A DNA stretch of 13,656 nt from Candidatus Poribacteria bacterium (GTDB lineage: Bacteria > Abyssobacteria > SURF-5). A program made the position numbers and the translations under genes. Each line of letters opens with the position of its first letter. Positions within the stretch are counted from its first letter, which is position 1. This document shows positions 181 through 13,647 of the stretch, piece by piece. The stretch is from contig JACRIR010000022.1 of the NCBI GenBank assembly GCA_016215705.1, positions 1 to 13,656 of the forward strand. Reading direction: 5' to 3'. A model generated the notes under the pieces. That model was not told the DNA's origin, searched no databases, and was given only the letters and a program-made list of their open reading frames with translations.

Positions 181-208
181 GGAAAAAGGGGAAAGGGCAA
201 AGGCGAAA
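181..208 (+). repeat. Heptamer array, GGNGAAA family
   Basis: Four exact 7-base units: GGAAAAA, GGGGAAA, GGGCAAA and GGCGAAA. The same unit and period recur at 306-333, 4301-4328, 5037-5057, 6348-6368 and 11003-11030. It lies in the spacer between the two tRNAs. Confidence 0.6.
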
Positions 209-305
209 GGGTCTAACAGATGTGAAGTTCCTTTGGCGCCTTTCATCCCGGATTTCGCCAATTCCAGCGGCAATGAGCGCCGCAAAGAATCAGGATTTGG
301 TCCCC

Positions 306-333
306 TTGCGCCCTGTTCCTTTCGTCTTGCTCC
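306..333 (-). repeat. Heptamer array, GGNGAAA family, inverted copy
   Basis: On minus the units read GGAGCAA, GACGAAA, GGAACAG and GGCGCAA, with a strict 7-base period. It is a degenerate member of the same family as 181-208 but in the opposite orientation, so the tRNA spacer carries two such arrays. Confidence 0.5.
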
Positions 334-388
334 TGTTACATTTAAGGAAATGGCGACCCTTCCGGGCCGCCACACCTGAATGCGCTTT

Positions 389-463
389 TGGAGGCGGCAC
401 CCGGATTCGAACCGGGGAATAAAGGTTTTGCAGACCTCTGCCTTACCACTTGGCTATGCCGCC
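389..463 (-). tRNA. tRNA-Cys (anticodon GCA)
   Basis: The reverse complement gives a cloverleaf with acceptor arms GGCGGCA and TGCCGCC. The discriminator is U, as expected for tRNA-Cys. The anticodon loop is CTGCAAA, so the anticodon is GCA. The T arm carries GGTTCGAATCC. Unlike its neighbour tRNA-Leu, this gene appears to encode its own CCA end (389-391). It is the first gene of a Cys-Leu tRNA unit, with 216 bases to tRNA-Leu, and a near-consensus promoter begins just upstream. Confidence 0.96.
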
Positions 464-473
464 ATTCAAAGTA

Positions 474-502
474 ATTCTAGTCTCGAAACGCCGATTTGTC
501 AA
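474..502 (-). promoter_or_regulatory. Sigma70-type promoter of the tRNA unit
   Basis: On minus there is a perfect -35 TTGACA (497-502), a 17-base spacer and the -10 TAGAAT (474-479, 5 of 6). The predicted start near 467 leaves only about 4 bases before the mature tRNA-Cys 5' end. This is the best promoter in the window by consensus. Confidence 0.85.
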
Positions 503-531
503 GCGCCGTTAAAGCAGTCAAAAGGGCGACA

Positions 532-576
532 GAGAAAATAGGGGACACGATGCCGCATCGTGTCCCCTATTTTCTC
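532..576. repeat. Perfect 22-bp palindrome, GGGGACAC element copy 1
   Basis: Two 22-base arms pair without mismatch around the single base at 554. The core is GGGGACACGATGC with its complement, and the outer arms are GAGAAAATA and TATTTTCTC. A diverged second copy lies at 11570-11612. It sits between the tRNA promoter and the dmsB-like stop, so on minus its hairpin could also end dmsB transcription. The shape resembles REP-type hairpins mobilised by Y1 transposases; no such transposase is visible here. Confidence 0.85.
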
Positions 577-595
577 ACAACACAACTATGTCGCT

Positions 596-627
596 CTTTG
601 CGCCTCGGGCCTGCGGCCCTTTGCGGT
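596..627 (-). repeat. CGCAAAGG repeat with an internal palindrome
   Basis: On minus, two CGCAAAG units are separated by about 15 bases containing the palindrome GGGCC-GCA-GGCCC (607-619). A homologous copy with an altered centre lies at 6457-6488. At 3738-3753 the same octamers are directly adjacent, without the palindrome. Confidence 0.6.
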
Positions 628-677
628 TCAAAACGTCTTGAGAGTCGCCGAACACCCGCCGCAATGCGCCAAATGGT

Positions 678-11569: not shown

Positions 11570-11612
11570 GTTTATTCGGGGGCGCCATGCGGGATGGTGT
11601 CCCCGAATAAAC
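11570..11612. repeat. GGGGACAC palindrome element copy 2
   Basis: Arms of 21 bases pair around base 11591 with one mismatch and two G-T pairs. It aligns without gaps to copy 1 (35-base core 11574-11608 with 537-571). It abuts the stop codon of the cyclodeaminase-family gene and lies ahead of the ribosome site of the next minus-strand gene. It could act as a transcript hairpin between them. Confidence 0.8.
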
Positions 11613-12590
11613 TCATCGTTCCAGCCACTGCCCGATACTCGATTTGACGGCCCTCTCGTACAATCTCCGCGCGACAGGCGCATCCTCTATGGCGAGTCCC
11701 AGATTCATCGACATGATACGCTCCCGGGGCGACGTTCGTCCACGGCGCGCAGAACATACGATATCCGAGAGGTCGCCGTAGAGTTCAGGGAAATCGCTGA
11801 AATATCCCTGCTGCTTGTAATACTCAAACTGCGCCACGTCGTCCGTAAGGATTTTGTCAAACTCTCGCAGGGCATCTCGATGCCAGTATGTGTCGAAATC
11901 CACCGGGCTCGCGAACACGCCGGCTTTGACCCATCCGGCCTCGATGCCCGGTTCCGGCGTCTTCTTAATCGGCCCGGCGGTTACGACTATGTCGGCATCC
12001 GTCACTGTCTCGCGAGGCGAACCACATTTCTCGAAACGTACTGCAGGGGATTGCGCGGACATCTCGCTTATGAATCCAGCAAGGTTTCCCTGCGAGATGT
12101 CGTAAGCCTTCACCTGCTCGATTGAAGGGAACGTCGCGGTCATAGCGGCGACGTGAGAACGCCCTTGCACGCCGCAGCCGATGACGGCGAGCGTCTTGGC
12201 GCCGGTGGGAGCGAGATGTTTGGCGGCCACGGCCGAAGCGGCGGCCGTCCGCATTGCGGTAATCCATGCGGCATCCATCACGGCGAGCGGCAGGCCGGTC
12301 TGTGGCTCGTTCAAGATAAGCAGGCCGGTTATGTAGGGAAGGTCACGCGAAGGGTTCTGCGGATAGCCGCTGACCCACTTTATCGCGGCGGCATTGAACG
12401 CAGGAACGTAGGCGGGCATGGCGTGGATGAACGAATCCGGCATAGGATGAATGCCCGGCTTGGGGGGCATTTCCACGTTTCCTCTCGCCTTCTCGCAAAA
12501 TACCTGTTCGACGATATCGATTATTTCGTTCATTCCGAGCCCGATATGTACGAGATCGGCCTGTGAAAGATACAAAAGGCGATTGCCCAT
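11613..12590 (-). CDS. Ornithine cyclodeaminase/mu-crystallin family protein
   Basis: This 325-residue protein belongs to the NAD(P)-dependent ornithine cyclodeaminase/mu-crystallin family, which includes ornithine and lysine cyclodeaminases, alanine dehydrogenase and ketimine reductases. AVIGCGVQGRSHVAAM (135-150) is the Rossmann nucleotide-binding loop. K71 in AAAIKWVSGYPQNP and R114 in ITAMRTAAASAVAAKHLA are at the usual substrate-binding positions. GRTSPRERIMSMNLGLAIED (284-303) is the conserved C-terminal segment. Length is normal for the family. ATG follows GGGAG by eight bases. A strong promoter lies just upstream (12642-12671), divergent from tlyA. The exact substrate cannot be told from these residues; proline synthesis from ornithine is only one option. 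Confidence 0.92.
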   Translation of the reverse strand: MGNRLLYLSQADLVHIGLGMNEIIDIVEQVFCEKARGNVEMPPKPGIHPMPDSFIHAMPAYVPAFNAAAIKWVSGYPQNPSRDLPYITGLLILNEPQTGLPLAVMDAAWITAMRTAAASAVAAKHLAPTGAKTLAVIGCGVQGRSHVAAMTATFPSIEQVKAYDISQGNLAGFISEMSAQSPAVRFEKCGSPRETVTDADIVVTAGPIKKTPEPGIEAGWVKAGVFASPVDFDTYWHRDALREFDKILTDDVAQFEYYKQQGYFSDFPELYGDLSDIVCSARRGRTSPRERIMSMNLGLAIEDAPVARRLYERAVKSSIGQWLER

Positions 12591-12641
12591 GTGGGTGTCT
12601 CCCGAAATTCGTCAAATAAGTTCCATACGTCCGGTTCGTGA

Positions 12642-12671
12642 ATGATAGCAGCACGTCAATAAGAATGTCAA
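12642..12671 (-). promoter_or_regulatory. Promoter of the cyclodeaminase-family gene
   Basis: On minus: perfect -35 TTGACA (12666-12671), 18-base spacer, -10 TATCAT (12642-12647, 5 of 6). The predicted start near 12635 gives a 45-base leader. Its -35 box is three bases from that of the tlyA promoter. Confidence 0.75.
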
Positions 12672-12674
12672 TTC

Positions 12675-12703
12675 TTGAACACACCAACCTCTCATGATAT
12701 AAT
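12675..12703 (+). promoter_or_regulatory. Extended -10 promoter of tlyA
   Basis: -35 TTGAAC (12675-12680), 17-base spacer, -10 TATAAT (12698-12703) preceded by TGA, forming an extended -10. The predicted start near 12710 gives a leader of about 27 bases carrying AAGGAG. Confidence 0.8.
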
Positions 12704-12736
12704 TCGATACTTGGAAAGCTAAGGAGTTGAATTCCG

Positions 12737-13489
12737 ATGCAAGTACCCGCCGATAGAAAAGACAGGCTGGATAAACTTCTGGTTGACTTGCATCTTGCGC
12801 CGACACGCGCAAGAGCAAGGTCCTTGATACTGGCGGGCCGCGTCAAAGTCGACTCTCACATTGTCGATAAGGCAGGGGCCCCGGTCAGGCCGGGAAGCGC
12901 AATCGAAGTTGCAGACACAAGCGATTATGTGAGCAGGGGCGGTGAGAAGCTTGAATTTGCACTCCAACATTTCAAGCCCATCATCAAGGACAAAGTCGCA
13001 CTCGACGTGGGCGCCTCGACCGGCGGCTTTACCGAATGTCTCCTTCGGCACGGGGCGCGAAAAGTCTATGCCGTCGACGTAGGTTATGGCCAATTGGCCT
13101 GGCAACTGCGTAACGATCCCCGGGTAATAATCATGGAGCGGAAGAACGCTCGAAACCTGACGGCGGAAATGTTCGATGAGCGCCCCGAATTGGCGACCGT
13201 GGATGTTTCCTTTATCTCGCTCACCCTGGTGGTCCCCCCTATTGCGGGGGTTCTAAGCAGTCCTGCGGATATTATCGCGCTCATAAAGCCTCAATTCGAG
13301 GCAGGACGCGAACACGTGCGAAAGGGTGGGGTTGTTCGAGACGCCGCCATTCACGAGCAGGTGACCCAGAAGATTGTTGAATTCGGGCGTAGCATTGGTC
13401 TTGAGCCGCATGGAGTCGTGGAGTCGCCTCTGTTGGGGCCGGCAGGGAATAAGGAATTCTTCATCTATTTGATCAGGCCAGCACACTGA
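12737..13489 (+). CDS. tlyA: TlyA-family rRNA (cytidine-2'-O)-methyltransferase
   Basis: This 250-residue protein matches TlyA, which 2'-O-methylates rRNA cytidines with S-adenosylmethionine; older annotations call it hemolysin A. An S4 RNA-binding domain covers about 8-65 (RLDKLLVDLHLAPTRARARS and GRVKVDS). YVSRGGEKLEFAL (64-76) is the linker signature. LDVGASTGGFTECLL (89-103) is the SAM site of an FtsJ-type domain. The presumed K-D-K-E tetrad is K71, D156 in TVDVSF, K184 in ALIKPQFE and E240 in GNKEFF. Length is slightly below the usual 260-275. AAGGAG lies ten bases before the ATG. It stands alone on plus with its own promoter, divergent from the cyclodeaminase gene. Confidence 0.95.
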   Translation: MQVPADRKDRLDKLLVDLHLAPTRARARSLILAGRVKVDSHIVDKAGAPVRPGSAIEVADTSDYVSRGGEKLEFALQHFKPIIKDKVALDVGASTGGFTECLLRHGARKVYAVDVGYGQLAWQLRNDPRVIIMERKNARNLTAEMFDERPELATVDVSFISLTLVVPPIAGVLSSPADIIALIKPQFEAGREHVRKGGVVRDAAIHEQVTQKIVEFGRSIGLEPHGVVESPLLGPAGNKEFFIYLIRPAH

Positions 13490-13540
13490 AGAGGCGAAAG
13501 GGGAGAACCGAAGAAGAAAAAGAAAGAAGAAGAACAAAAA

Positions 13541-13569
13541 GGAGATTCTTCGCTTCGCTCAGAATGACA
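13541..13569 (+). repeat. 29-base dispersed repeat, copy 2
   Basis: Identical over 29 bases to 1385-1413. It follows an A/G-rich tract after the tlyA stop codon. No other gene or RNA is recognised from 13490 to the end. Confidence 0.8.
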
Positions 13570-13633
13570 GATTGTGGGTGGTATTCAGTCTTGCCGGAGT
13601 GGCCGCGGTGGAGCAACCGAAGGCAAACCTTGG

Positions 13634-13647
13634 GGATTGCGGATTGG
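13634..13647 (+). repeat. GGATTGC heptamer pair
   Basis: GGATTGC then GGATTGG, followed by an A/G-rich stretch to the window end; same family as 4482-4502. The array may continue beyond the window. Confidence 0.5.

Follow-up and report, generated by a model that had tools for sequence, protein, structure and literature searches.

The contig JACRIR010000022.1 of a Candidatus Poribacteria bacterium, 13,656 nt long and one entire contig of a 5.47-Mb genome (the window), carries two classes of short tandem repeat in its intergenic DNA: arrays of 7-mers repeated without linkers, and arrays of 8-, 9- and 10-mers built on one shared pattern. Taking the window together with the rest of its genome (the host genome, for which figures come partly from a 344-kb sample) and with other bacteria, we think it fairly probable that the 8-10-mer arrays are the arms of inverted-repeat elements resembling mobile DNA, and that the 7-mers are slippage repeats.

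Masks for genes and tRNA-like sequences were drawn manually from the list of open reading frames (ORFs), giving 4,079 intergenic bases and 9.6 kb of genes. The intergenic bases hold 10 arrays with a score of at least 8 at period 7, 4 at period 8, 5 at period 9 and 2 at period 10, where dinucleotide shuffles give 0.12, 0.14, 0.13 and 0.09, respectively. A reading of the window made from its letters (the sequence-only reading) had reported such arrays, and they exist at or near the positions quoted, although the one at 4894-4925 is weak (score 8); because composition-matched shuffles yield almost none, the shuffle test does not refute them. Autocorrelation of the intergenic sequence is strong at lag 7 (z = 10.5), lag 8 (z = 5.1) and lag 9 (z = 6.0), and is not significant at lag 10 (z = 1.3 in 4,079 bases). 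Within the manually masked genes, no array at periods 7-10 scores 9 or more, and in 344 kb of the host genome the density of period-7 arrays is 7.8 per 10 kb between genes vs 0.7 in ORFs. The word families occur elsewhere in the genome, so they are not restricted to this locus, and scans of other genomes recovered the words in the intergenic DNA of distant lineages, as had been supposed.

Read from their left ends, the 8-10-mer arrays open with ACC and continue with roughly three 7-nt cores of the form CRCNRRK, set apart by linkers of 1-3 nt. The words ACCAAGGC, CGCAAAGG, ATGACRCAA, ACGAATGAC, ACGGATTTC and CGCNGATGAA, described in the sequence-only reading as unrelated, are all frames of this single core; in the window only the ATGGACRRN/ATGGACNNN array (5161-5207) and the 7-mers lie outside the grammar. 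Core variants include CACCAAG, CGCAAAG, CGCAGAG, CACGGAT, CGCAGAT, CACGAAT, CACAAAT and CACGGGG. Linkers are (1,1) and (2,1) for CACCAAG, (2,2) and (3,3) for CACGGAT, (2,3) and (2,2) for CGCAGAG, and (1,2) for CGCAAAG. Since one word takes several linkers, which are also mixed within single arrays, the proposal that each family has its own fixed unit length fails, and the 8-10-mers lack the constant period of a simple-sequence repeat. The ratio of transitions to transversions between neighbouring units is 0.7-1.1 in arrays other than the 7-mers. A strict two-core pattern has 17 matches in the window, every one of them intergenic and plus-strand, 4 of the 17 being the ACC-led form counted twice. 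In 344 kb of the host genome, ACC-core-linker-core occurs 50 times vs 3 in a reversed control. The repeats of the window are as follows.

3731-3753, plus strand: ACC-led array of the word CGCAAAG, with tip TCTCACC and a linker of 1.
3787-3811, plus strand: CACGAAT array (9-mer), truncated by the GC-rich hairpin CGCGCAAGGCGCG.
4252-4281, plus strand: array of the ATGACRCAA family, with cores CACAAAT/CGCAAGT and GA-type linkers.
4406-4432, plus strand: ATGACRCAA array, reading CGCAAAT-GA-CACAAAT-GA-CACAAG.
6375-6495, no strand assigned: degenerate paired element with left tip TCTCACCACCAAGG and right tip CTTTGCGGTGAGA.
7389-7414, plus strand: CACGAAT/ACGAATGAC array (9-mer).
8145-8174, plus strand: ACC-led array of the word CACCAAG (8-mer), which has relatives in other phyla.
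8191-8218, plus strand: ACC-led array of the word CACGGAT (9-mer).
8266-8294, plus strand: ACC-led array of the word CGCAGAT (10-mer).
9441-9501, plus strand: CACGAAT array interrupted at 9452-9472 by ATCCCGCGAAACGCGGGACG, a hairpin resembling repetitive extragenic palindromic (REP) sequences.
9520-9535, plus strand: CACGAAT/CACAAAT remnant with two cores.
5161-5207, plus strand: 9-mer array ATGGACNNN, off the CRCNRRK grammar.
177-210, plus strand: 7-mer array GGNGAAA.
3973-4006, plus strand: 7-mer array RGTTYAY (AACCRTR on the other strand).
4299-4322, plus strand: 7-mer array GGNGAAA/AAGGAGC.
4478-4501, plus strand: 7-mer array GGATTGC.
4794-4818, plus strand: 7-mer array RGTTYAY.
7432-7468, minus strand: 7-mer array RGTTYAY.
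9371-9401, plus strand: 7-mer array GTTCCTG.
11002-11034, plus strand: 7-mer array GGNGAAA.

Elsewhere in the host genome, the 8-10-mer arrays form inverted pairs. The CGCAAAG array CGCAAAGNCGCAAAG has 62 matches there and none in a reversed control, and strict matches within 300 bp of each other form 7 facing pairs, 43-110 bp apart, and no outward pair; degraded partner arms emerge when single matches are inspected. Hairpins of -53 to -66 kcal/mol (z of -7 to -12) are predicted for the pairs. Single arms show no fold and neither a GTAG nor a CGTC tag. The window's candidate pair at 6375-6495 has tips that on their own pair well, and its whole fold is no better than that of shuffles (z = -0.69). 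At a series of host loci (L137-L156), close neighbours with different words are nearly always on the same strand and those with the same word mostly face each other; many arms there are followed by A/G-rich tails.

Azospirillum carries an element of ~85 bp with a conserved interior. Dozens of matches to it occur in A. canadense and A. rugosum, and the matches listed include none from five sister genomes. Across the genus, the highest arm counts, 170 and 156, belong to these two species; six others have 18-61, and all remaining counts are 0-7. Of 45 Azospirillum genomes, G050, G051, G103, G085 and G097 have high counts and most of the others almost none. Among the arms listed for A. canadense, 24 pairs point towards each other and none point apart within 130 bp, and both arms of a pair belong to the same word class at a spacing typical of the word. 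Gene contexts were taken from a caller aware of GC content at third codon positions; crude ORF calls place many high-GC arrays "inside" genes. Of 34 classified copies, 22 lie in convergent gaps, 12 in tandem gaps and none between divergent genes, nearly all of them near at least one stop codon and mostly just after it. The hairpins are not followed by the run of U that marks an intrinsic terminator. A BLAST comparison of the element with plasmids gave no match, for which the low-complexity filter may be the cause.

Orthologous sites differ between Azospirillum species. At the first A. canadense locus, the flanks of the element were recovered in sister species, and their alignment shows the element absent from the other species examined, two of which have a short GC hairpin in its place; A. 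rugosum has a paired ACAGAG/ACGGAG array there between the same tips, TTCACCAC...GTGGTGAA. A CACCAAG pair in A. canadense stands opposite a CACAGAG/CACGGAG pair in A. rugosum, an arrangement found at two loci. CACGGAT arrays occur in other Azospirillum species at the second locus, and A. rugosum has a REP-like pair instead at the third. Within each arm of 27 Azospirillum pairs, A and G alternate between the two linkers (p<0.001 per arm). Linkers that face each other across a pair show no covariation (p=0.44 and 1.0 for these pairs, with orientation not normalised to the interior, so that a weak link could hide), and each arm therefore acts as a module and not as one side of a conserved RNA stem.

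The grammar is widespread and patchy. Searching named genomes for three units of CACCAAG gave at least 119 stretches, and among the matches listed are Acidobacteria, Alphaproteobacteria, Cyanobacteria, Planctomycetes, Verrucomicrobia, Bacteroidetes, Desulfuromonadales, Nitrospirae, Chloroflexi, Spirochaetes, Omnitrophota and others. Most of the stretches listed open with the ACC tip, and many have their own inverse 20-250 bp further on; matches lacking the tip in Paenibacillus, Pantoea, Photobacterium and Xanthomonas may be unrelated. In a blind test of the pattern ACCACNRRKN{1,3}CRCNRRKN{1,3}CRCNRRK on 290 diverse genomes, 89 had at least one match and 45, tallied from the result table as belonging to 41 families, had at least five, with a maximum of 260; the reversed control never exceeded 4 per genome. 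The genome with 260 matches (G286) has a congener with none (G145); G254 and G118 are also rich in matches. Carriers each prefer particular words, such as CACGAAG (G341), CACGGGG (G163), CACAGAG (G250) and CACAAAG (G158). The G286 arrays sit in the ends of a ~180-bp element with a conserved interior and ~45-bp inverted ends TTAACCC...GGGTTAA, laid out as TTAACCCAGATTATGCATTAG-ACC-cores ... GGTTTAATGCATTATTTGGGTTAA. Arrays also lie on viral contigs (20 and 11 for two words, where the surroundings could be host flanks), and such contigs are a possible route of transfer. One IMG/VR viral contig (L288, 399-1461) has two facing CACCAAG pairs ~0.9 kb apart.

The 7-mers have a different anatomy. Their arrays have no linker and 2 to about 20 units, with the constant period of a simple-sequence repeat, their neighbouring units show an excess of transitions (ratio 1.95), and none was seen in facing pairs. 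The small total size ascribed to all the arrays does not hold for the 7-mers across the genome, where arrays reach 139 bp (L144) and 91 bp (L138). AACCRTR has 136 matches in the host vs 0 and 2 in two members of its family, and occurs in 11 of 241 genomes overall, a handful of them from other families. The simplest account of the 7-mers is slippage during replication followed by point mutation, amplified in this lineage. A single generating process behind every array, as first proposed, thus gives way to two classes. Of the two mechanisms offered for it, a template-slipping polymerase is the simplest explanation for the 7-mers and does not suit the 8-10-mers with their ordered linkers, facing arms and dispersed whole elements; hairpin insertion comes closer to the truth for the 8-10-mers, although the search described below did not identify an insertion enzyme.

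Facing pairs, multicopy dispersal, conserved interiors and post-stop placement (Azospirillum; for interiors also G286), patchiness and differences at orthologous sites are what a mobile-element account of the 8-10-mers would bring together. The arrays would be arms, either single or in pairs, belonging to short inverted-repeat elements that encode nothing and in which a short interior is enclosed by two inward-facing arms, with a word, linker pattern and arm spacing particular to each family. Such elements may be non-autonomous and mobile, akin to miniature inverted-repeat transposable elements (MITEs) or REPs, with a protein acting in trans that would recognise the arms as tandem 7-nt sites, and most host copies would be old relics reduced to arms. 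More tentatively, and with appreciably less confidence, we suggest that a single ancient mobilisation system reading tandem 7-nt sites might extend across dozens of families, the word drifting within a fixed grammar to give several word-specific families per genome and different words at the same sites in sister species.

Several observations weigh against mobility. Most arms in the window itself lack a partner, the interiors of host elements are not conserved among copies, and host arms show no bias to convergent gaps. In Azospirillum, the flanks at the differing orthologous sites do not align exactly, so a target-site duplication is not cleanly resolved there, and the empty sites come from species at ~86% identity and may reflect deletion. 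At the fourth locus a mere arm scar is left, a clear deletion, showing that deletion also happens. No transposase and no parent element with the same ends was found, and the gene neighbours of the arrays include no recurrent family.

That the elements are REPs moved by RAYT (Y1) transposases is now scarcely credible and largely refuted. The size class, the extragenic placement and the preference for 3' ends are alike, and Y1 genes are present in A. canadense and A. rugosum and absent from five sister genomes without the 85-bp element. However, three carriers (G060, G056 and G044) have no Y1 match, and no array arms lie beside the Y1 loci examined in A. canadense, A. rugosum, G002, G055, G058 and the host; the A. 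rugosum RAYT gene (L265) is bounded by its own GTAGGTTGGGT repeats, with GTAGGTTGGGTGGAGCGAAGCGCAACCCAAC inverted, as a textbook GTAG REP pair. From the carriers lacking Y1 and the arm-free Y1 loci, we rejected REP transposases as the mobiliser. Integron attC sites, considered for the AACC...GGTT tips, were dropped on anatomy alone, with no dedicated test, as there are no cassette arrays and no gene between the arms. Very unlikely, too, is that every array from 7- to 10-mer arose by template slippage and recurs by convergence. Heptamers are in excess in prokaryotes and slippage has been proposed for them (Mrazek 2007, as quoted in PMC4679880), which suits the 7-mers here, but slippage does not explain the 8-10-mers, in which ordered linkers such as (1,2) recur in unlinked copies, linkers are mixed, arms have about three cores and a shared ACC tip, and facing pairs enclose conserved interiors in dispersed elements.

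Two alternatives would make the arms functional sites. They may be binding sites of a chromosome-organising or global regulatory protein, maintained by selection and only incidentally mobile, as in the published reading of paired octamer arrays in Geobacter metallireducens (PMC2700814); the lack of covariation between facing linkers agrees with this, as each arm would keep its own sequence rather than its pairing. We regard this as unlikely: sister species that lack the elements, or have another word at the same site, would be odd for a global regulon, and no conserved target genes appear, the neighbours sharing no common family. Slightly less likely still is the proposal that the arms are RNA hairpins at 3' ends, terminators or stabilisers of mRNA that replace one another under selection at any one site. 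The strong predicted hairpins, the position of Azospirillum copies near stop codons and never between divergent genes, and the GC hairpin or REP-like pair at the same site in relatives all fit such a role, but the hairpins lack a U-run, the facing linkers do not covary, host arms, which have no strand bias relative to transcription, also occupy tandem and divergent gaps, and REPs have the same 3' preference (PMC3733652).

The window holds further repeats. ATGGACNNNATGGAC, from the 9-mer array at 5161-5207, has 4 matches in 344 kb and none in the control. Near-perfect palindromes around GGGGACACGATGC/GCATCGTGTCCCC lie at 532-576 and 11570-11612, their family core has 50 matches in 344 kb, and the host Y1 transposase genes at L159 have ends (ATGTCCCCGGAATAA) that resemble them. 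REP-like hairpins at 4134-4155, 9452-9472 and 3851-3901 (ATCCCGCGAAACGCGGGACG; GTCATTCCCGCG...GCGGGAATCC) are similar to CGTC-tagged REPs, and two of the three interrupt or abut short-repeat arrays. The dispersed repeat GATTCTTCGCTTCGCTCAGAATGACA has window copies at 1384-1412 and 13541-13569 and 10 copies in 344 kb, and related sequence lies inside a CACCAAG pair of Odyssella (L019).

The closest published counterpart is in G. metallireducens, where paired opposite-strand octamer arrays of classes 1-3 were described as putative binding sites of a global regulator (Aklujkar 2009; PMC2700814); multicopy intergenic repeats were also noted in G. bemidjiensis (PMC2996986). Like the arms, classes 1-3 are tandem 7- or 8-mers in opposite-strand pairs at variable distance, intergenic and multicopy. 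On the other strand, class 2 (three units of TCTCCGTS[Y]) reads as the word CACGGAG and, compared by published description only, matches the Azospirillum CACGGAG pairs in word and geometry, whereas classes 1 (GTTGCTYN) and 3 (MTYCTGA) do not fit the core CRCNRRK. The Geobacter account differs in dealing with single words in one genome, with no shared grammar, ACC tip, cross-family spread or comparison of orthologous sites. Prokaryotic MITEs (PMC10969869) are likewise short, non-coding, multicopy, intergenic and patchy with inverted ends, and the G286 element is a near-typical case. Terminal inverted repeats on a short non-coding element are present in A. canadense (~85 bp), G286 (~180 bp) and the host pairs, and dispersed copies share an interior in Azospirillum and G286 but not in the host. 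The array elements differ from MITEs in that each end consists of a drifting 7-nt core repeated in tandem, and no parent element or transposase sharing those ends was found, whether as an adjacent or recurrent gene or through a Y1 link. GTAG- and CGTC-tagged REPs are extragenic palindromic pairs that occur in many phyla, chiefly after genes and between convergent ones, and CGTC REPs, like the array elements, have no known transposase (PMC3733652). However, a REP is a hairpin of 20-40 bp that bears a tetranucleotide tag, while single array arms neither fold nor have a tag, and the RAYT loci examined bear other repeats.

Heptameric repeats are known as TAACTGA in Beggiatoaceae, cyanobacteria and Bacteroidetes (PMC4679880) and as GGGNATC in Xanthomonas and Nostoc (PMC4692102), and heptamers are over-represented in prokaryotes, with slippage proposed (Mrazek 2007, through the account in PMC4679880). 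The window 7-mers resemble them in being intergenic and tandem, with genome-specific words common to distant lineages, and differ in the words themselves (AACCRTR, GGATTGC and GGNGAAA). Small dispersed repeats of cyanobacteria reportedly lie inside heptamer arrays (Elhai, 2008), a hairpin element nested in tandem short repeats like that at 9452-9472, in arrangement only. Literature searches with the words gave one incidental match, in a Bacteroides paper, and the open literature searched, which leaves most subscription-journal papers and all preprints outside, held no account of the grammar that the words share, of its spread across families or of the word differences at the same sites. A considerable part of the "random" short repeats in bacterial intergenic DNA may belong to one recognisable superfamily. 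The grammar can serve at once as a genome-wide detector whose control gives almost no false positives; patchiness within genera opens a direct route to the mobiliser through gene presence and absence, and differences in word at one site are a natural experiment on the movement or conversion of these elements.

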